Positions 2,307-37,764 of a stretch of DNA of 64,000 bases are shown here, piece by piece; position 1 is the stretch's first letter, and every line of letters starts with the position of its first letter. This stretch comes from a virus. The position numbers and the translations under genes are program-made. The notes beneath the pieces are model-generated. The model had not been told where the DNA came from. It was given only the letters and a program-made list of their open reading frames with translations, and ran no database searches. The DNA lies in IMG/VR virus record IMGVR_UViG_3300044713_000107, positions 16,847-80,846 of that record, one strand, 5' to 3'.

Positions 2307-4453
2307 CACTGCTCCTGGATGTGGTCGGTGTGGATGTAGTTGGTGCGCTCCCCGCCCGGCTGCACGATCTTCGGCTCGGCCTTCAGCCACGTGGTGACGG
2401 TCTGCCGGGACGGCGCCTTCGCGTTCGGGAACACCGCGCGGAAGGTGTCGAGGATGCCCTCGGGGTTGATGCCTTCCGGGCCGGAGGAGCGGACGATGCC
2501 GTAGACCTGGGGCCAGCGGTCGTCGCTGCTGATGCCGGGGGTGGGCGAGTTCGGACTGGCTGCGGGCGCGGGGGTGTCGTCAGTGGGGGGCGTCCAGACG
2601 CCACCGGCGCCTTCGACGATGTCGCGGAACTGGCGCTCCAGGTCGGCGTCACGGCTGGCGTTCTCGTCCATCGTCTGGTGCAAGTCCCGCTTCGCCGCAT
2701 CCGCCTGGTCGATCACAGACTGCGCCTCGGGAGCCAGCGGCCCGGCCTCCGGCTTGCCCCAGTCGGCGGTGACGCTACGGCGGCGCTCGGGCCGATCCCC
2801 GACGATGCTCGTCAGGCCTTCCTCAACTGGGAACGGCGCGGAGCCGAGGCCGAAGAGGTGGTCCGTGTTCTCCCACCGCTTCTCGTAGGCGTCGCCTGCG
2901 GCTTTGCGGGACAGGTCGTCAAGGTCGGGGTGGCGGTCGCTGGTGGCCTTCACGATGTCGGCGATCTGGTTCGGCAGCATCCGGTACGCCTTGAACGGCC
3001 GCGCGGGCTCGTCCAGGATCTTCACGAAGCCGCACCCGGGGTAGGGGGCGTCGTCGGTGCTGATCCGGTCGGACCAGCCGAACAGGTACGACATCTCCCG
3101 CTCGTCGGACTTCATGCCGATCTTCAGGCCGGACTGGGCCAGCAACTGCGGCTCGCTGATCACATCCTGCGTGGCGCGCAGCGCGGTGATGAGCGCGTTC
3201 ACGGCAACGGCGCGGGCGAGCTCGACGACCTGGATGAGGGTGTCGCCGGTCTCCTTCAGGATCTCGTTCTTGCGGGCCTTCGGGGAGAAGATCTCCGCGA
3301 TCTCATCGCCGACGATCATGATGCCGGGGACTGCGGCGCACACCGGCAGCTTGTCGTCGTTCGCCTCCAACTCCAGGTGCTTGTAACCCGGCTTGCGGGC
3401 CTTCGCGATCCGCAGCGCGGCCTTCGCCATCGCCAACGCCTTCGCCGGAGTGTCCGCAACCCAGTCGATCGGCGGCTTACCCGGGCGCCCGGCCTTCTCC
3501 CACGCGTGCAGCCACGCCAGCGCGAGACCACCGCCGTTGAGGTCGATCACCCACGTGATGTTGTCGGTCATGCGGACCAGGCCCGCGACCTCCACGTTCG
3601 ACAGGTTCGTCTTCCCGGAGCCCTTACGTCCGGCCATGAGCGTCGACAGCTGCCGCAGTGACGGAGCAACGCGCGCACCGTCCCGGTACACGCCCATCGG
3701 CAGGCCGTCGTTCAAAGACAGCGGCGAGTAGTCCGCCGGGTAGGGCTCATCCCCGGCGAGCCGGTTCACGGTCGCCACGTTGATCAGCACAGCACCGCGG
3801 TGCGCACCCGGGCCGACCTCAACCCCGCAGCCCTCGGGCAGCTTCGCGTCGGCGGCGAGGCCGTCCTCGAACGCCTTGAAGTCACGCCACTTCGTGCCGT
3901 TGGAGCACTCCCCATCGAGGGTGAACCCGCCGCCGGACTCCCACTGCTCAACGCCGACGATCTGCACGGTCGCACTGGTGCACACCCGGGTCAGACGCTC
4001 GGTCCACTCGTCGGCGACCGCGCGCCGCTTGGCGTCCATGCTGGCCGCACGCTCAATCGCCTCGAAGCGGGCCCGTTCGTCGGCCTTCACCTCCTCGTGG
4101 TGGCGTGCGCCCTCGATCGCGGCACCGAGACCGATGCCGCCTGCGATCAGCGCGCCAATCGCCTTGCCCGTCCAGGGACCTTCAACGGTCGCCCACGAGC
4201 ACCAGCCGCCGACACCCAGCCACGTGGCGGCACGCATGATCAGGGCTGAGCGGGGGATCCGCTTCTTCCGTCCGGCATACATGCTGCCGACCAGTCCGGC
4301 GCCAGCAGCACCGGCGAGCCAGCCGGGGCCGAGGTGGGCAAGGTGGTGATGGGCGAGTTCGTAGTCGGCCCAGGCAAGCGTGAGGCTCGTCCAGGTGGCG
4401 TTGATGGGGCCGGCGACGGGGCCGTGTCCGGCGTCCCAATCGATGTGCACCAC
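2306..4453 (-). CDS. traB: FtsK/SpoIIIE (TraB-type) DNA translocase
   Basis: A 715-residue protein starting at GTG 4453 with AAAGGA about ten bases upstream. Two hydrophobic segments near residues 40-110 anchor it in the membrane. The motor has Walker A GRKGSGKTN (about 275-283), a WVIDLNGGG strand and a Walker B-like GIMIVGDE (about 377-384). The C-terminal about 200 residues are charged and Pro-rich and end in a possible winged-helix segment. In Streptomyces, one such hexameric ATPase (TraB) moves double-stranded plasmid DNA between cells. Its neighbours are Spd-like proteins and a separate gamma-like domain, which supports a transfer role over cell division. The symbol rests on architecture and context only. 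Confidence 0.8.
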   Translation of the reverse strand: MVHIDWDAGHGPVAGPINATWTSLTLAWADYELAHHHLAHLGPGWLAGAAGAGLVGSMYAGRKKRIPRSALIMRAATWLGVGGWCSWATVEGPWTGKAIGALIAGGIGLGAAIEGARHHEEVKADERARFEAIERAASMDAKRRAVADEWTERLTRVCTSATVQIVGVEQWESGGGFTLDGECSNGTKWRDFKAFEDGLAADAKLPEGCGVEVGPGAHRGAVLINVATVNRLAGDEPYPADYSPLSLNDGLPMGVYRDGARVAPSLRQLSTLMAGRKGSGKTNLSNVEVAGLVRMTDNITWVIDLNGGGLALAWLHAWEKAGRPGKPPIDWVADTPAKALAMAKAALRIAKARKPGYKHLELEANDDKLPVCAAVPGIMIVGDEIAEIFSPKARKNEILKETGDTLIQVVELARAVAVNALITALRATQDVISEPQLLAQSGLKIGMKSDEREMSYLFGWSDRISTDDAPYPGCGFVKILDEPARPFKAYRMLPNQIADIVKATSDRHPDLDDLSRKAAGDAYEKRWENTDHLFGLGSAPFPVEEGLTSIVGDRPERRRSVTADWGKPEAGPLAPEAQSVIDQADAAKRDLHQTMDENASRDADLERQFRDIVEGAGGVWTPPTDDTPAPAASPNSPTPGISSDDRWPQVYGIVRSSGPEGINPEGILDTFRAVFPNAKAPSRQTVTTWLKAEPKIVQPGGERTNYIHTDHIQEQ

Positions 4454-4492: not shown

Positions 4493-5905
4493 TCAGGACA
4501 GGTTGGTCGAGACGTCCCACATGCGCTCGCCAGCGATGCCCTTGCGCGGGTTCTCCAGGCGGGCGAGGTCGACCTGGTGGAGGCTCTTGAACGCGGGCTG
4601 CAGCTCGGCGGCGAGCTCGGAGGCCTTCAGCTGGAGACCGTGGATCTGCTTCATCAGGTCGACGATCTGCGGGTCGAGGGGGTGCTGGGCGTCGGCCTTG
4701 TCGACGGTGACCCTCATGGCCTCGGCAACGAGCTCCAGGCCCTCCTGGAGTCCGGCGAAGTCGGCGCCGACCTGGAGCATGCCGGTGGGTTCGTAGGCGG
4801 CTGCGGCGCGGGCCATTTCCATGGCGGGGCCGGTGAAGTGGTGGCCGGGCATGAGGGTTCCTCCGTTGGCGGTTCGGGTGATCTGGTTGGTGGGCTTGCG
4901 GACGACGGACGAGATGGTGGGTTCGGGCTTGGCCGGGTCGGTGGTCTTGTTCTTGCGGTTGGCGCGGTGCTGCTTCCATGCGGCCCAGGCTTTGGCGAGG
5001 CCCTTCTTGATGGACCAGTGGCGCAGCGTGCCCCACACGCCGGTGCGGATGGCGCGGAGGGCGTCGGCGGTGAACCCGCGGGACTTCCGTCCGGCTTTCT
5101 TCGCGGCAGCCCACGACTTGGTGCGCAGCGGCTTGCTGGTCTTCCACGCCTTCGAGGCACCGGCACCGGCGAGGCGACCGGCACCCGCGGCGGCGCGCCC
5201 GACGTGACCAGCCGTGGTCTTCGCGGCACGGCTGGCGGCGGACGGGCTCGTCTTCGAGGACTTCTGGGAGCGGTTCGAGTTGCTGCCGTTGGAGCCGGCG
5301 GAGCTGCCTCCATCGCGGCGGTTCCTGGTTCGCTGCGAACCAGGACCGCTAGCCGTGCTTCCGGTTCCGCTTCCGTGCGAACCAGCGCCCGCAGGCGAGC
5401 CGGAACCAGACCGCGAACCACCGCCGCTGGAACCTGCGGAACCCGTTGAGGTACGCCACGGCGAACCAGCCGCCGAGGTTCGCGAACCACCCGACCCGGA
5501 ACCACGCGAACCCCAGCTCGAACCCGTGCCGGAACCGCCCCACGAACCGCCGCGTGAACCACCGGAACCGAACCCGCCGGAACCGAGCGAGGACCGGCGC
5601 CGAACCTGACGGCGCCGGCGAACCACAGCCGCCACCGCCCCCAACGCAACCACCCCGCCAGCCGCGGCCAGCGCGGGCAGACCACCCGCCTCCGCCGCAG
5701 CCGTCAGGCCCATCGCGGTCGCGTTGCCGGTCGCAGCGAGCGCCGGCCCGGCGGGGATGCCGCGCTTCTTCGCGGGCTTCTCCTTGGCCTCCTTCGGCTC
5801 CGCAGCCTGCTGCCCGGCGGGTACAGCCCACCCGGCGGTGAGAGTCGGCGCGGGGATCGTGATGGTGGCCGGCTCCGGGGCGGGCGCGACCTGAGTGTCC
5901 GCCAC
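4493..5905 (-). CDS. Gly/Ser-rich membrane protein of the transfer operon (SpdB-like)
   Basis: A 470-residue protein starting at GTG 5905 behind AAGGGAGG. Order of parts: a Pro/Ala-rich leader, a hydrophobic segment (about residues 68-95), a very basic RRRRQVRRR patch, a long Gly/Ser/Thr repeat tract (about 105-200), a basic Lys/Arg region, then a C-terminal helical domain of about 140 residues beginning MPGHHFTGPAMEMARAAAAY. It resembles the SpdB2 type of Streptomyces conjugation proteins, which bind DNA and assist spread. Gly codons preceding Ser in the tract are mostly GGT, giving many GGTTC pentamers; see the repeat entry. Confidence 0.65.
   Translation of the reverse strand: MADTQVAPAPEPATITIPAPTLTAGWAVPAGQQAAEPKEAKEKPAKKRGIPAGPALAATGNATAMGLTAAAEAGGLPALAAAGGVVALGAVAAVVRRRRQVRRRSSLGSGGFGSGGSRGGSWGGSGTGSSWGSRGSGSGGSRTSAAGSPWRTSTGSAGSSGGGSRSGSGSPAGAGSHGSGTGSTASGPGSQRTRNRRDGGSSAGSNGSNSNRSQKSSKTSPSAASRAAKTTAGHVGRAAAGAGRLAGAGASKAWKTSKPLRTKSWAAAKKAGRKSRGFTADALRAIRTGVWGTLRHWSIKKGLAKAWAAWKQHRANRKNKTTDPAKPEPTISSVVRKPTNQITRTANGGTLMPGHHFTGPAMEMARAAAAYEPTGMLQVGADFAGLQEGLELVAEAMRVTVDKADAQHPLDPQIVDLMKQIHGLQLKASELAAELQPAFKSLHQVDLARLENPRKGIAGERMWDVSTNLS
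5280..5605. repeat. Dense GGTTC/GAACC pentamer cluster inside the SpdB-like gene
   Basis: About twenty GAACC or GGTTC pentamers fall in roughly 320 bases. They encode Gly-Ser steps on the minus strand, but GGT is used before TC-type Ser codons although GGC would be expected at this GC content. The same pentamers form the palindromic repeats in the neighbouring DUF2637 gene, so a DNA-level signal such as a motor recognition site is possible. Confidence 0.6.
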
Positions 5906-13022: not shown

Positions 13023-13247
13023 ATGTTGGAACTGGCGCGTCCCCTCAGGGACGACGAGCTGCTGACCCCCATCGAGGTCAGCAAAATGACCAAGCTCGCC
13101 CTGCGCACCCTCGCCGACAAGCGATGGAAGGGAACGGGCCCCGACTACATCAAGCTCAGCCCCGGCAGGAACGGCCACGTGCGTTACTGGCGCAGCGCCG
13201 TCCTTGCGTGGCTGAACGAACACGACGACCTCGCGGACGCAGCATGA
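13023..13247 (+). CDS. MerR/excisionase-like HTH protein
   Basis: A 74-residue protein. ATG 13023 is chosen for the AAGGAAAAGG six bases upstream. LLTPIEVSKMTKLALRTLADKRWKGTGPDYIKL and VRYWRSAVLAWL are the helix and wing of the HTH_17/AlpA-excisionase fold. These serve as recombination directionality factors or small regulators. ATGA overlap couples it to the GIY-YIG gene. It could be the RDF for the serine integrase, but the distance (36 kb) makes that uncertain. Confidence 0.7.
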   Translation: MLELARPLRDDELLTPIEVSKMTKLALRTLADKRWKGTGPDYIKLSPGRNGHVRYWRSAVLAWLNEHDDLADAA

Positions 13248-14651: not shown

Positions 14652-14680
14652 GGGCCGCCCCAGGGAAAGTGGGGCGGCCC
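14652..14680 (+). terminator. 11-bp hairpin upstream of the initiator gene
   Basis: GGGCCGCCCCA at 14652-14662 pairs with TGGGGCGGCCC at 14670-14680. With no T-run, and 43 bases before the next start, it may attenuate rather than stop transcription. Confidence 0.55.
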
Positions 14681-14722: not shown

Positions 14723-15604
14723 GTGGGCGACAGCGACGCCGGACAGCCATCCGGCAAGAAGCGCGCAGAGACGCGCTACTGCCGTGTCCCGCAGTGGCTC
14801 TACAGCGCTGGCGTCTCACTCCAGGCCATCGCCGCATACGGCTGGCTGCACGGCCGCTACGGATTCCTGCCCGTGATCAACCCGTCGTACGCGACGCTCG
14901 CCGAGGAGCTCCACTGCAGCCGCGGCAGTGTCATCACCTACCTGAAAGAGCTGGTCCGGGTCGGTGCGATCCGCATCAACGTGGGCGGCCCGAAGGGTCG
15001 AACGATCAACACCTACGAGATCGCGTTCGACGCTCCGTTCCCCGTAAGTGGTCAGTCGGCTGACCACTTGAAGGGTGCCGAGAGCTCCCAAGTGGTCAGC
15101 GGGCTGACCACTACTGGTCAGCCCGCTGACCAGAGCCCCGGTCAAAGTGGTCAGCGGGCTGTACCCGAAGAAGAAGTAGTTAAGAACGGGAAGACTCTCT
15201 CTGCTCGCATGCCCCGTCAGCCCCAGCCGTCTCCCGCTCCAGTCGAGAGAGAGACGGTTGCTTCGCAGGACAAGCTGACGACCGCGCAGCGGATCGTTCG
15301 CACTGCCGCCGTCGTAGCCGAAGCAGACGAAGACACGTTCATCGCCTGGGTGCGCGCCAAGCACCCGCCAGCCGGCCCGCAGTTCTGGCGCAAGGTCTCC
15401 GCCCAGGGCGATCTGCCCGAGCTCGTCGAGGCCTGGCGCGCCGACCAGCCTTCCCGGCCCACGCTGTCGCTCATTCCCGACTGGTGCGGCCACTGCAACC
15501 GCGGCCAGCAGCCCGCCAGCATCGCCGAACGCATCAACGAGACAACCGACGGCCGCATCGAACAGTGCCGGGCCTGCCACCCGGCCCGACGTGCCGCCGC
15601 CTGA
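14723..15604 (+). CDS. Winged-helix replication-initiator-like protein
   Basis: A 293-residue protein starting at GTG 14723, with GGAGTAGG eight bases upstream. Residues about 15-110 form a wHTH of the HTH_36 type (LQAIAAYGWLHGRYG, PSYATLAEELHCSRGSVITYLKELV), then a low-complexity linker, then a helical domain (about 190-265) and a C-terminal CGHCNR...CRAC zinc pair. The linker DNA carries 3.5 phased copies of a GGTCAG dyad (15046-15161) and then an A-rich stretch. With dnaB directly downstream, this resembles lambda O: an initiator whose gene contains its own origin. The function is inferred from architecture and context. Confidence 0.7.
   Translation: MGDSDAGQPSGKKRAETRYCRVPQWLYSAGVSLQAIAAYGWLHGRYGFLPVINPSYATLAEELHCSRGSVITYLKELVRVGAIRINVGGPKGRTINTYEIAFDAPFPVSGQSADHLKGAESSQVVSGLTTTGQPADQSPGQSGQRAVPEEEVVKNGKTLSARMPRQPQPSPAPVERETVASQDKLTTAQRIVRTAAVVAEADEDTFIAWVRAKHPPAGPQFWRKVSAQGDLPELVEAWRADQPSRPTLSLIPDWCGHCNRGQQPASIAERINETTDGRIEQCRACHPARRAAA
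15046..15161. repeat. Iteron cluster inside the initiator gene, candidate origin
   Basis: A dyad of AAGTGGTCAG, four bases, and CTGACCACTT is perfect at 15046-15069, near perfect at 15090-15113, a shortened perfect form (CTGGTCAG/CTGACCAG) at 15114-15133, and a half copy starts at 15145. Their centres are 44, 22 and 33 bases apart, all multiples of 11, so they share one helical face. An AT-richer run (GAAGAAGAAGTAGTTAAGAA) follows at about 15168-15187 and could be the unwinding element. Confidence 0.7.
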
Positions 15605-15614
15605 AAGGACCCCC

Positions 15615-16973
15615 GTGCAGACCGCACCCGACCCGTTCGACGACCTCGTAGACGAGCCCGAGCCCGATCCGATCCTCGACGCCGAGCAGGCTGTCCTCGG
15701 GTCGATGATGCTCGACCGCGACACCATCCCCGACGTCAACGCGATCCTCGCTCCGCGCGACCACTCCCGTCCGGCGCACACCACGATCCACGAGGCCGTC
15801 AATGCCCTGTTCCAGCGCGGCGAGCCGTGTGACCCGATCACCGTCACCCGGGAACTCATGGCCCGTGGCGATCTCGCCCGCGTCGGCGGAGCGTCCTACG
15901 TTCACGGCTGCGTCGAGGCCGTTCCGACGGTCGCGAACGCCGAGTACTACGCCGAGATGATCCACGAGCGCGGCGTGTTCCGGCGCCTGGAGGCCGCGGG
16001 GATCGGCATCGTGCAGCTCGGGCAGCAGCGCCTCGGGAACGCCGTCGAGGCGGTCGACAAGGCGCAGGCCGAGCTGTTCACCATCGCCGAGGAGCGGGCG
16101 AGCGAAGACGTCGTCCCGGTCGGGCAGACGCTCACAATCACGCTGGACGCGATGGAGGAGCGGCAGAACAGCGACCAGGCGAAGATGCCCGGCGTGCCGA
16201 CGGGCTTCACCGATCTGGACACGCTGACTGGTGGCCTCCGCGGCGGCCAGATGATCGTAGTTGCCGCACGGCCAGCCATGGGCAAGTCCACCGTGGCGCT
16301 CGACTTCGCCCGCTCCGCTGCGATCAAGCACGGCATGACGACGGCGTTCTTCTCGCTGGAGATGGGACGTCAGGAGATCGAGGAGCGTCTCATCTCGGCG
16401 CAGTCCCGGGTTGCCCTGCACCACATCCGCCAGGGGACACTCACCGACGACGACTGGACCAGGATCGGCCGCCACACTGGCGAGATCCTGGAAGCGCCGC
16501 TGCTGCTTGACACCTCGACGAACCTGACCGCTATGGACATCCGGGCGAAGTCCCGCCGGTTGGCGCAGAAGCACGACCTGAAGCTCGTGATCGTGGACTA
16601 CCTGCAGCTGATGCAGTCCGGGGGAGCGAAGTCCGAGACGCGGCAGCTCGAAGTCACTGAGATCAGCCGGAACTTGAAGCTGTTGGCCAAGGAGCTCGAC
16701 GTTCCCGTGGTCGCCCTGTCGCAGCTGAATCGTGGTCCGGAGCAGCGCGCCGACAAGCGGCCGATGGTCTCCGACCTCCGTGAGTCGGGCTCCATCGAGC
16801 AGGACGCGGACATGGTCATCCTGTTGCACCGCGAGGACGCCTACGAGAAGGAATCCCCCCGCGCCGGCGAGGCCGACCTCATCGTGGCCAAGCACCGCGG
16901 CGGCCCCACGGCGACGATCACAGTCGCCGCCGCGCTCCACTATTCGCAGTTCGTCGACATGGCGCAGAGCTGA
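15615..16973 (+). CDS. dnaB: Replicative DNA helicase DnaB
   Basis: A 452-residue protein starting at GTG 15615 with AAAGGA upstream. The N-terminal primase-binding domain (AEQAVLGSMMLDRDTI) is followed by the RecA-like motor with Walker A ARPAMGKST (about 218-226), SLEMGRQE, Walker B LVIVDYLQLM and the Arg-finger region near the C-terminus (SDLRESGSIEQDADMV). The length is normal for DnaB. It unwinds the replication fork and is presumably loaded by the upstream initiator-like protein. No intein is present. Confidence 0.95.
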   Translation: MQTAPDPFDDLVDEPEPDPILDAEQAVLGSMMLDRDTIPDVNAILAPRDHSRPAHTTIHEAVNALFQRGEPCDPITVTRELMARGDLARVGGASYVHGCVEAVPTVANAEYYAEMIHERGVFRRLEAAGIGIVQLGQQRLGNAVEAVDKAQAELFTIAEERASEDVVPVGQTLTITLDAMEERQNSDQAKMPGVPTGFTDLDTLTGGLRGGQMIVVAARPAMGKSTVALDFARSAAIKHGMTTAFFSLEMGRQEIEERLISAQSRVALHHIRQGTLTDDDWTRIGRHTGEILEAPLLLDTSTNLTAMDIRAKSRRLAQKHDLKLVIVDYLQLMQSGGAKSETRQLEVTEISRNLKLLAKELDVPVVALSQLNRGPEQRADKRPMVSDLRESGSIEQDADMVILLHREDAYEKESPRAGEADLIVAKHRGGPTATITVAAALHYSQFVDMAQS

Positions 16974-17060: not shown

Positions 17061-18194
17061 ATGAGCGATCTGACGCTGACCGACCTGTTCCCGCCCGAGG
17101 CGCTTGCCGCCGCGATCGACGCTGGGCACGTGACCCGCAAGCAGCACCCGACACTGCCCCTGTCGATCTACACCTACACGCGGGAGTGCCAGTACGGGCA
17201 CATCTGGACCCCCGTCACGATGCAGTGCCGGGGCCTGATCGCTGACGACGCGTCGGGGCGCATCGTGGCCCTGCCGTTCCCGAAGATCTTCGTGACGGGC
17301 ATGCACGGCGTCCACGACTTCGCCCCCGCGCTGCCCGCCGAGCCGTTCGAGATCTTCGAGAAGGCCGACGGCAGCCTCATCATCCTGTTCCACCACGGCG
17401 GGCGCTGGCACGCCGCCTCAAAGGGCTCGTTCATCAGCGAGCAGGCCACCTGGGCGCAGCAGTTGCTCGACGCCTCCGACCTGACCCGCCTTGACCCGCA
17501 GTTCACCTACCTCGCCGAGGCCATCTACCCCGGCAACCGAATCGTCGTTGACTACGGCCAGCGCGAGGCCCTGATGCTCCTCGCCGCGTACCGGCCAGCG
17601 GACGGCACCGAGGAGCTCCTGTCGACGGTCGCGGCGCACTGGGAGCCGATAGGCCCGGTCGTGCGCTCCTGGGGTCTGTCGTCGGACATCGCGGTGCTGG
17701 AGAAGCTCGCTGCGGAGTCGACCACCGTCGACGGCCAGGAGGTCGGCGGCGTGGACGAGGAGGGCTACGTCATCCGCTTCCAGTCCGGGCTGCGCGCCAA
17801 GGTGAAGCTTGCCGCCTACCTCAAGCTGCACAAGCTGTTCACTGGCACGAACGAGCGCACCATCTGGGAAGTCCTCGCGTCCGGCCAGGACCCGGCCGTC
17901 CTCTTCGACCAGGTCCCCGACGAGTTCGCCGACTGGGCCCGCCAGATCGCGGACGGGCTGCACGAGCAGCACCGGCAGCTCCTCGCCGAGGCCACCGCGG
18001 ACTATGCGGAGGTACTCGCCCAGCTCCCTGCCGGTTGCGACCGCAAGTCGTTCGCGCTCCTGGCCAAGGAGACCCGGCACCGCTCCGCGCTCTTCCTGCT
18101 CGTGGACGGCCGCGTCGACGCGGCGAGCGCCTGGGCGTGGAAGCAGCTCAAGCCCCGCGGCGACAAGCCGTTCAAGACCGACGAGGAAGGCTGA
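17061..18194 (+). CDS. T4 Rnl1-type RNA ligase
   Basis: A 377-residue protein starting at ATG 17061. The nucleotidyltransferase core has motif I EKADGSL with Lys101 (T4 Rnl1 uses Lys99), a TYLAEAIYPGNRIVVDYG motif III region, EGYVIRF motif IV and KVK motif V. A helical C-terminal domain follows, and the length matches Rnl1. Rnl1 seals tRNAs cut in the anticodon loop by host anticodon nucleases, using ends healed by Pnkp, which is encoded immediately downstream. The pair forms an RNA-repair cassette. Confidence 0.9.
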   Translation: MSDLTLTDLFPPEALAAAIDAGHVTRKQHPTLPLSIYTYTRECQYGHIWTPVTMQCRGLIADDASGRIVALPFPKIFVTGMHGVHDFAPALPAEPFEIFEKADGSLIILFHHGGRWHAASKGSFISEQATWAQQLLDASDLTRLDPQFTYLAEAIYPGNRIVVDYGQREALMLLAAYRPADGTEELLSTVAAHWEPIGPVVRSWGLSSDIAVLEKLAAESTTVDGQEVGGVDEEGYVIRFQSGLRAKVKLAAYLKLHKLFTGTNERTIWEVLASGQDPAVLFDQVPDEFADWARQIADGLHEQHRQLLAEATADYAEVLAQLPAGCDRKSFALLAKETRHRSALFLLVDGRVDAASAWAWKQLKPRGDKPFKTDEEG

Positions 18195-35358: not shown

Positions 35359-35976
35359 TCAGCTGGCTTCCGGTCGCGCGGCGTAGGCCTCTTTCCGCGA
35401 CGGGTGTGTGTCCTGCAGGACCCGATGCCGGGTGGGCGTGCGGCACGGGTTGCCTGCGTAGGCCCGGCAGTAGGGGCAGTCGACGGCGATGTCCGGGTGT
35501 GCGAGCTTCATCGCACCCCAGCCGGTCAGGGATTCAGCGAGCTGCAACCGGATGTGGTCCGGCATGTACTGGCGCTTCTCGGGCTTGATGACGTTGCGTT
35601 CGATGCCTGCGGTGAGTTCTTTGACGTCGTAGACCGGGGCTCGGCCTGTGACGACGGCGCTGCGCTCGGCGTGCAGCTGGCGTCGGTAGTCCTTCTCGTC
35701 GTCGGGGTCGGCACGCGGTGGTGTCTCGACGTGGCGTTCGAGGCGGCGCCTCGTCTCGGCTTTCCACTTCGCGGCTATGTCCGCGGGCAGGACGGGGAAC
35801 GGCGAGGTGGCGTAGTGCTGGCCGACGGCGTCGAGGGCGAACTGCAGCGGGACGTCCTTGAGGACGGTGGCCCACATGGCGACTTGGCCGCGTTGCTCGG
35901 CGGGGTCTTCACGGAGGACGCGGGGGTCGGCGTAGCTGATCTGCTTGAGGAGTTCGGGGACGTCTTGGAGGTTCAT
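35359..35976 (-). CDS. Replication-module protein with zinc-finger C-terminus
   Basis: A 205-residue protein from ATG 35976, overlapping the initiator-like gene. The N-terminal about 75 residues (PELLKQISYADPRVLREDPAEQRGQVAMWATVLKDVP) are helical in the manner of helicase-loader-type proteins. DCPYCRAYAGNPCRTPTRHRV at the C-terminus is a zinc finger seen in actinophage replication proteins. A helicase-loader role is inferred from its pairing with the upstream gene. Confidence 0.65.
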   Translation of the reverse strand: MNLQDVPELLKQISYADPRVLREDPAEQRGQVAMWATVLKDVPLQFALDAVGQHYATSPFPVLPADIAAKWKAETRRRLERHVETPPRADPDDEKDYRRQLHAERSAVVTGRAPVYDVKELTAGIERNVIKPEKRQYMPDHIRLQLAESLTGWGAMKLAHPDIAVDCPYCRAYAGNPCRTPTRHRVLQDTHPSRKEAYAARPEAS

Positions 35977-36848
35977 GCGGTTTCCCCGCTTTCGATGGCT
36001 TGGGCGGCGATTTCGGCGGCGATGGCGTCGTAGCCGGAGCGGGCGGCGTTGCGGGCGGCGGCCTTGGGGTCGGCGGCGTGGATGGGCACGACTGCGGCGC
36101 CGGGCTGTGGGGGCGCGGGCCTGCGGGTGCGGTGCCAGGTGTCGTAGAAGAGCCGGCTGCTGACGGCGGGGCCTTTGAGGGTCTGCATGACGCTGATGGC
36201 GAGGCTGACCATGAGCGGGACGCCGAGGCGTTTGATGTCGTTGTGGAGCCGGAACGCGTCGTCGCCTTTGAAGCTCCAGGGCACGTTGATGCCTGCGGCG
36301 CTGATGGCGTCGGCGAGTTCGATGCACCAGATGGGGAAGTCGTCGTCGGGGTCGCGGCGGGCGATCTCGCGGGAGGTCGCGGGCGCGCGCGTTGATGATT
36401 GGTTCCCTGACGGTTCCTCTGATGGTTCTAGTGATGATTCGGGTGAACTTTGGACGGGGTTTCGTGTCGCAAAGTTCGGGGTTTCGTGCTCAAAGTTCGG
36501 GGTTTCTGTCGCAGAGTTCGGGGTTTCTCGCTCCGTTACCCCGTCAGATGTGCGGGGTTTCTGGGCGGATACCCCGTCGATCTGACGGGGTTTCGGGATG
36601 ATCTGATACCGGTTCCGGCGGTGTCGGCCGCCGCCGAGACCCACCGCCAGTTCGCCGATTTCGATCAGGTTGGCGATGCCCTTCTGGACCGCGCGCGGGG
36701 ACAACAGCGTCCGGTTGGCGATGTCCTCGATGGACGGCCACGCGAACCCGTTCTCGTCGGCCCGGTCCGCGATGGCGAGCATGACGAGTCGGGCTCCGTT
36801 ACGGGACTGGGAGTTCTCCCAGACCCAGTTCGTGACCTTGATGCTCAC
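35973..36848 (-). CDS. Second winged-helix initiator-like protein
   Basis: A 291-residue protein starting at GTG 36848. The N-terminal HTH_36 wHTH (SRNGARLVMLAIADRADENGFAWPSIEDIANRTLLSPRAVQKGIANLIEIGEL) is followed by a low-complexity linker repeating ETPNFxx and a helical C-terminal domain (about 180-240) like that of helicase loaders. The linker DNA carries six phased GGGGTTTC repeats. Architecture parallels the 14723 gene: wHTH, repeat-laden linker, helical domain. It is probably an alternative replication initiator for this element. Confidence 0.7.
   Translation of the reverse strand: MSIKVTNWVWENSQSRNGARLVMLAIADRADENGFAWPSIEDIANRTLLSPRAVQKGIANLIEIGELAVGLGGGRHRRNRYQIIPKPRQIDGVSAQKPRTSDGVTERETPNSATETPNFEHETPNFATRNPVQSSPESSLEPSEEPSGNQSSTRAPATSREIARRDPDDDFPIWCIELADAISAAGINVPWSFKGDDAFRLHNDIKRLGVPLMVSLAISVMQTLKGPAVSSRLFYDTWHRTRRPAPPQPGAAVVPIHAADPKAAARNAARSGYDAIAAEIAAQAIESGETA
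36456..36594. repeat. Second intragenic iteron array
   Basis: GGGGTTTC starts at 36456, 36478, 36499, 36520, 36554 and 36587: spacings 22, 21, 21, 34, 33, close to whole helical turns. Three copies share AAAGTTCGGGGTTTC or one change. ACCCCGTCAGAT at 36538-36549 is also inverted at 36580-36591. Together they look like an origin embedded in the linker codons. Confidence 0.65.
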
Positions 36849-36887
36849 GTAGGTCTTCTCTCGGAAGTGAGCGGACGGATGGAGGAT

Positions 36888-36913
36888 GCGGGGCGGCCGG
36901 CGGACCGCCCCGC
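36888..36913 (-). terminator. 9-bp hairpin between ParB-like and initiator-like genes
   Basis: GCGGGGCGG at 36888-36896 pairs with CCGCCCCGC at 36905-36913. Confidence 0.6.
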
Positions 36914-36921
36914 GGGTGGGG

Positions 36922-37764
36922 CTACTTGGGCTCGGGGAACGGCTCGGGCTTCGCGCCACCGGCGCGCCAGACGAGGATCTGGACGGTCTTGCCTTCGCGG
37001 AAGAGGTTCCAGGCCTTGATGACGAGGGCGTTTACGTGCGTCTCGTCGGGGCGTCCTTGCTGGTTGGCGAGGTTGGCCAGGGCGCGGCGCAGGGCGTAGA
37101 TGGGGTCTTCGCCGTCGAGGCCGACGCCGTCGCCGAGACGCGCGAAGAAGTACGCGCAGTCGCTCTTGTCGATGCTGTTGAACAGCCAGTGGCACAGCGC
37201 GGCGGTGCTGCCGTTGAGGGCGATCACGGAGCGGACGCGCTCGGCGATTTCGGCGGACCGGCGCAGCTCGGGGTGCTCGTTGAGGATTTCGAGGAGCTGC
37301 CGGTTGGTGACGGTGGCGTTGCCGCCCCGCTTGAGGTTCTTTCGGTAGCCCTGCTTCCACTTCGCGACGCGCAGGAGCGCGGCGGCGAGGATGACGACGT
37401 GGGCCTCGCCGCGGAGCTTGAGGACGTCGGCCATGGTGCGCTTGGCGCCGGTGTCCATGGTGTCCTGGGTGTGGTTCGGCAGGTCCCGGACGACGAGGAG
37501 GCGGATCGTGACGCCGGACTGCACGATCGCGGCGAGGCGGTGCTGGCCGTCGAGGAGGGTGCCGTCGGCGGCGAACTTGATGGACTGCCCGTCTTCGAGC
37601 CACGCGCCGGAGGCCATGTCGGTGGCGTAGCCGTTGACGACGCGCTCGCGGAGGTTGCGGTTGTGGGTGTTGCGCTGGAGCCATTCCTTGGCCATGGCGG
37701 GCGTGATCGCGGTGACTTCGTAGGTCGGGCCGTTGTCGAGGGTTCCCTGTACGGTGGTGCTCAT
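36922..37764 (-). CDS. ParB/sulfiredoxin-fold protein
   Basis: A 280-residue protein from ATG 37764. IKFAADGTLLDGQHRLAAIVQSGVTIRLLVVRDL contains the DGQHRL motif of ParB-like nuclease-fold proteins, common in actinophage early regions. The rest is helical (LILAAALLRVAKW, ALRRALANLANQQ). It could be a nuclease or a DNA-binding switch protein; residues around the motif are intact. It is cotranscribed with the next upstream gene. Confidence 0.7.
   Translation of the reverse strand: MSTTVQGTLDNGPTYEVTAITPAMAKEWLQRNTHNRNLRERVVNGYATDMASGAWLEDGQSIKFAADGTLLDGQHRLAAIVQSGVTIRLLVVRDLPNHTQDTMDTGAKRTMADVLKLRGEAHVVILAAALLRVAKWKQGYRKNLKRGGNATVTNRQLLEILNEHPELRRSAEIAERVRSVIALNGSTAALCHWLFNSIDKSDCAYFFARLGDGVGLDGEDPIYALRRALANLANQQGRPDETHVNALVIKAWNLFREGKTVQILVWRAGGAKPEPFPEPK

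Follow-up and report, generated by a model that had tools for sequence, protein, structure and literature searches.

A phage HTH_36 initiator gene with GGTCAG dyads in its linker codons, a probable replication origin within the coding sequence

In phage lambda, the initiator gene O contains dyadic iterons followed by an A+T-rich segment, and a helicase-related gene lies directly downstream. A few lactococcal phages and staphylococcal plasmids are known to have origins located inside the genes of their winged helix-turn-helix (wHTH) initiators. Specifically, ORF13 of TP901-1 and Rep of Tuc2009 bind to repeats that lie within the genes encoding them and act as ori (PMC8965321). Plasmid pSK41 has four Rep boxes in the middle of rep, where the encoded protein segment is dispensable, and the N-terminal pfam13730 HTH of the chimeric Rep of pPR9 has a relative in a phage replication protein (PMC5703833). 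In actinobacterial phages, a position inside or adjacent to repA has been proposed for the origins of prophage RepA proteins, with no repeat array identified (PMC7157519).

We analysed a 64,000-nucleotide stretch (the window) of an 80,846-bp virus record, in which an inspection of the letters alone (the original prediction) had pointed to dyads inside an initiator-like gene. The gene and its downstream partner are as follows.

14723-15604, plus strand: replication initiator gene, 293 aa (PF13730, PHROG 270, AF2 model)
15475-15580, plus strand: C-terminal cysteine-rich module WCGHC...CRACHP (alignments with loci L004 and L026)
15615-16973, plus strand: dnaB replicative helicase gene, GTG start (DnaB_C, E 1.3e-98; PHROG 19, E 7.6e-107)

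The GTG start at 14723, the gene coordinates, the wHTH and the downstream dnaB had all been called correctly. On the other hand, the view that the protein belonged to no nameable Rep family was not upheld: judged by its profile matches, it is a divergent member of the HTH_36/PHROG 270 phage replication initiators. Its N-terminus matched HTH_36 (PF13730) with an E value of 3.9e-5 and 23.8 bits, just under the curated cut-off of 25, and the protein matched PHROG 270, "replication initiation protein", with an E value of 1.3e-9; the sibling protein of L026 matched the same PHROG with 2.9e-31. PHROG "O-like" matches were weak, and Pfam gave no match of the protein to the RepA_N domain (PF06970) or, at E 0.1, to the lambda O N-terminal domain. 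An AICE Rep identity, prompted by an FtsK-like gene in the window, was set aside, as Pfam and PHROG indicated HTH_36 initiators. No match to the protein was found by tblastn against 50,697 phage records or among plasmid records, and a protein search of genome contigs returned no relative.

In the AF2 model, a winged helix (residues ~24-102) is followed by an unstructured linker (~105-185) and a helical segment (187-241). Note that the model was built from three sequences and is poor outside the wHTH, with a pLDDT of ~70-80 in the wHTH, a mean pLDDT of 50 and a pTM of 0.32. Foldseek against the PDB placed 4pql, 5kbj and 4pt7, which we take to be the N-terminal domains of the pSK41 and pTZ2162 Reps, one of them DNA-bound, among the best but weak matches (E ~0.008), and MarR folds scored nearly as well. 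Against predicted structures of viral proteins, the top hits with a name were helix-turn-helix proteins, replisome organizers, replication initiators and GpO-like proteins. The cysteine-rich C-terminus is common to the window protein and L004, and its cysteine pairs would bind zinc. L026 has another C-terminus, a FW..YP.K domain that is common in the family but absent from the window protein and L004; since this domain is missing in several other family members as well, it does not define the family.

We next characterized the dyads, which coincide with the disordered linker of this low-confidence model.

15046-15069, no strand assigned: iteron 1, AAGTGGTCAG-N4-CTGACCACTT, perfect 10-bp arms, core 15050-15065
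15091-15112, no strand assigned: iteron 2, AGTGGTCAGC-N2-GCTGACCACT, frame different from the other three, core 15094-15109
15114-15133, no strand assigned: iteron 3, CTGGTCAGC-N2-GCTGACCAG, core 15116-15131
15149-15164, plus strand: iteron 4, GGTCAGCGGGCTGtaC, half copy with two mismatches, both in the right arm
15167-15196, no strand assigned: presumed DNA-unwinding element, among the lowest-GC 30-mers of the gene

Pattern matching confirmed three full dyads and one half copy in the linker codons. The exact GGTCAG-N4-CTGACC site occurs at 15050-15065, 15094-15109 and 15116-15131, its only three positions in the 80,846-bp record, from which the reversed control pattern was absent; the dyad arms of the three full sites reach 9-10 bp, beyond the 6-bp core pattern. 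When the codons were shuffled synonymously, with the protein and the codon usage of the gene held constant, none of 2000 trials contained three or more copies of any dyad with 6-bp arms and an N4 spacer (maximum, 2). The four sites lie in reading frames 0, 2, 0 and 0 and are translated as SGQSADH, VVSGLTTT, GQPADQ and SGQRAV. The presence of the dyads in two reading frames and the outcome of the shuffles indicate selection on the DNA and not on the peptide. The opposite explanation, that the repeats merely reflect a repeated GQxAD-like linker motif, draws on the recurrence of GQ.AD several times in the linkers of the window protein and L004, but the frame and shuffle tests refute it: codon shuffles that preserve the peptide lose the dyads, one and the same gene reads the site in the different ways given above, and the related locus L031 reads it as VRKLTH or GQKTD, depending on the frame.

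The A-rich run that had been noted after the array was confirmed: within the 882-bp gene, the 30-mers lowest in GC (40% GC vs 67%) start at 15167, 2 bp past the last site. In addition, dnaB starts 10 bp after the end of the initiator gene. Because an in-gene array, a following A+T-rich segment and an adjacent dnaB match the known in-gene origins, these features support the reading that the phage initiator carries a replication origin inside its own coding sequence, to which we give a probability of roughly 85%. Specifically, dimers of the N-terminal winged helix would occupy the GGTCAG dyads of the linker codons along approximately one face of the DNA helix, and several assembled dimers would melt the neighbouring segment at 15167-15196. 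The phage's own DnaB would then be loaded at the melted segment, probably via the C-terminal part of the initiator. Replication of the phage very probably starts inside its own initiator gene. Given that in-gene origins of wHTH initiators are already established, the window case joins a known class. Less expected are a C-terminus rich in cysteine, the recurrence of a single iteron sequence in distant phages, and the presence of two arrays in one record, as described below.

How the locus compares with the described systems differs from case to case. The layout had been likened to that of lambda O, and this holds for the organisation, as dyadic in-gene iterons are followed by A+T-rich DNA in both; however, the helicase-related neighbour is DnaB itself in the window and a P-type loader in lambda, and TP901-1/RepA_N-like is the better name for the layout. 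With the P335 lactococcal phage proteins TP901-1 ORF13, Tuc2009 Rep2009 and BK5-T ORF49, the likeness consists in repeats inside the initiator gene. The BK5-T record has a repeat_region annotated within the ORF49 gene, and ORF49 belongs to the protein-similarity set of L057, one of the window's relatives, but these phages have an AT-rich host, and their repeat sequence and C-terminus differ from those of the window. In the RepA_N plasmids pSK41 and pTZ2162, a wHTH N-terminus likewise binds boxes in the middle of rep, and the fold match of the window protein to it is the weak one mentioned above. The RepA_N Rep has a C-terminal DnaD-like domain; in the window protein, the helical segment and the cysteine pairs follow the linker.

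We then examined relatives of the initiator. L004, which was picked by protein similarity alone, encodes a protein 41% identical to that of the window, and has sites at 3310, 3327, 3349 and 3370 (two perfect dyads and two half copies) in the same position as in the window, although its linker peptide is largely rewritten. The original prediction had proposed that retention of the linker peptide without the dyads in homologues would speak against it; L004 showed the opposite, with the dyads kept while the peptide changed. L026 is 37% identical over the alignment and 48% in the wHTH region, and its dyads lie in the same place. Both loci, which are from uncultivated phages or prophages, also have dnaB downstream of the initiator, but their spacings differ from those of the window. 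A scan of viral contigs by the DNA pattern alone led independently to wHTH initiators with linker sites in L026, L031 and four loci nearly identical to it, L060, L054 and L057, and a second pattern scan added L140 and L151, so that the site is present in at least five initiator groups more distant than L004. Note that most three-site matches, above all bacterial ones, were unrelated repetitive genes with no recognisable wHTH; the DNA pattern was therefore rejected as a sole diagnosis of the family and requires a protein context. A gene in L009 (10368-11690), without a PHROG or Pfam match, has three perfect GGTCAGAATTCTGACC dyads in its linker and a cysteine-rich C-terminus, and may be related to the window initiator at a far greater distance.

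The spacings between the four window sites are 44, 22 and 33 bp, as the original prediction of exact multiples of 11 had it for this gene. As a rule, however, exact 11-bp periodicity was rejected, since all spacings are multiples of 11 in the window copy only: those of the relatives were 17/22/21 in L004 and, for example, 46/21/21/22, 19/24/24 and 21/21 in others, mostly 19-24 bp with a mode of 21. Clustering modulo 10.5-11 bp was significant (Rayleigh p ~2e-4 to 6e-4 for 22 spacings, which are not independent), and rough helical phasing alone is the general feature. The lowest-GC 30-mer begins 0-5 bp past the array in the window, L004, L026 and L054 and at the array edge in J-1, where an unwinding element would be expected; in L031, L060 and L140, the lowest-GC segment does not directly follow the array. 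The same data bear on a function at the RNA level, in which the dyads would form hairpins or attenuators in the rep mRNA. Although every dyad is able to fold as a hairpin, Rfam had no match in the window, the spacings keep the rough helical phase, and the copies in L140 and L151 are imperfect dyads that retain GGTCAG half sites, which suits protein binding better than stems. We thus regard an RNA function as very improbable.

The window contains a second initiator gene of the same family, with an array of its own.

35973-36848, minus strand: second HTH_36 replication initiator gene, 291 aa (PF13730, E 7.4e-11)
36455-36594, minus strand: second in-gene array, six GAAACCCCG repeats with spacings of 33, 34, 21, 21 and 22
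36422-36451, no strand assigned: lowest-GC 30-mer of the second initiator gene (40% vs 66%), 3 bp past the last repeat

A longer frame of this gene (35973-36959) matched PHROG 1032 with an E value of 1e-22. The GAAACCCCG repeats lie in the linker-coding part of the gene, occupy all three reading frames and occur nowhere else in the window, and none of 2000 codon shuffles matched them. The dyads had been proposed to mark the origin of the element; the in-gene origin layout is supported, but because the second initiator gene has its own in-gene iterons, the dyad array is not necessarily the element's origin and stands as one of two candidates.

This second complete array is also one of the points in favour of an alternative in which the dyads are an intragenic operator, by which the wHTH protein tunes or blocks its own rep-dnaB operon, and replication begins at another place, such as the second initiator gene. 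Dyads to which a wHTH protein binds typically serve as operators, and a one-mismatch copy of the dyad, GGTCAGCAAAATGACC, is present at 13076-13091, within a small gene of the HTH_17 type that precedes the rep operon; this copy may be a chance occurrence or an operator. However, the usual place of an operator is the promoter, whereas the array lies within the gene by its most A+T-rich segment, a position kept in distant relatives, and the equivalent repeats of characterised relatives are ori (PMC8965321). We therefore consider it unlikely that the array is an operator only, while autoregulation could occur in addition to, or in place of, the origin role.

The presence of two initiators bears on the identity of the element, but not on the in-gene origin itself. 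Genes for the major head protein, the portal and the large terminase were found at the left end of the record, and the window encodes FtsK/SpoIIIE-like and ParB-domain proteins, a RecE-like exonuclease, an antirepressor, a serine integrase and an endolysin, which fits one large temperate phage, possibly circularly permuted. The GC skew has a broad maximum near 13 kb only and gives no clear origin signal. The record might instead be a composite of a plasmid- or AICE-like module (FtsK-like, ParB, wHTH and DnaB) and a prophage with its own initiator, each array being the origin of a separate element. Consistent with this, the FtsK/SpoIIIE-like and ParB-like genes lie on the side of the first initiator and the exonuclease, antirepressor and integrase genes on that of the second, and the 36.8-kb record of L315 has the second initiator type only. 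Yet a single circularly permuted phage could account for the minus-strand genes at both extremities, those for head and packaging on the left and that for the endolysin close to the right end. G001, the record of L004, which is unrelated to the window record, likewise has two HTH_36 initiators, and no internal element ends were noticed. We regard the composite as possible, but doubtful. In G001, the second initiator (L326, G001:C1:23000-25200, minus strand, gene ~141-1127) has an in-gene array of the GGACGTGGACG type, and ~1 kb upstream of this initiator there is a relative of the ParB-like protein of the window. No second HTH_36 initiator was found in the record of L026, where the extra matches fall in a GntR-like regulator.

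L315 has the same wHTH and iteron spacing pattern as the second window initiator, with an unrelated C-terminal domain, which looks like a module swap with its boundary at the array. Similarly, in L054, J-1 (L302) and R29.1 (L314) of lactobacillus phages, the protein after the linker is nearly identical and the wHTH and the repeats differ jointly. Such a joint change would be expected of a wHTH that reads the repeats, and suggests apparent swaps of wHTH-plus-repeat cassettes bounded at the in-gene origin. Phage P1 divides prophage maintenance from lytic replication, using different proteins. As a tentative idea, some large actinobacterial phages may be two-origin replicons, with two unrelated HTH_36 initiators that each have in-gene iterons (in the window, GGTCAG dyads with dnaB as partner in one case and GAAACCCCG repeats in the other), possibly splitting plasmid-like prophage maintenance from lytic replication; their in-gene origins would be the exchange points at which wHTH-plus-iteron cassettes pass between C-terminal modules. 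The two in-gene arrays in one phage record are an oddity open to direct test.

To survey the family, we compared short repeats within 130 bp with 400 codon shuffles in 24 initiators, nearly all of which were selected by protein. Repeats exceeded the shuffles with p ~0.02 or less in 20 of the 24 and with 0.022 in one further; CL1_46, Bolt007 and DelaGarza showed no excess in this test. Out-of-frame direct repeats were in excess in about half of the set. The repeat sequence varied between lineages; staphylococcal phage 77, for instance, has GTCAATA dyads, and J-1 has GGGTATACCGAAAAATCGGACA. These results suggest that an in-gene origin is the normal condition among HTH_36 initiators. If so, codon-shuffled repeat tests could locate in-gene origins from sequence alone, and would thereby assign origins to many uncultivated phages in which none has been mapped. 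In addition, the shared GGTCAG-N4-CTGACC site and the joint wHTH and repeat swaps form a natural data set on wHTH specificity.

Several minor features were observed elsewhere in the window. ARAGORN called a tRNA-His at 5585-5659 on the minus strand, within a long minus-strand ORF where Rfam had no tRNA, and the call is probably spurious. A strong G+C-rich hairpin (GGGCCGCCCC...GGGGCGGCCC, 14652-14680) without a T run lies between a small upstream ORF and the first initiator, and is a possible attenuator or terminator. Just past dnaB, an RNA ligase (RNA_lig_T4_1, E 1e-11) is encoded at 17061-18194, and the frame after it (~18.1-19.1 kb) appeared kinase-like by eye; the two are perhaps an RNA repair pair.
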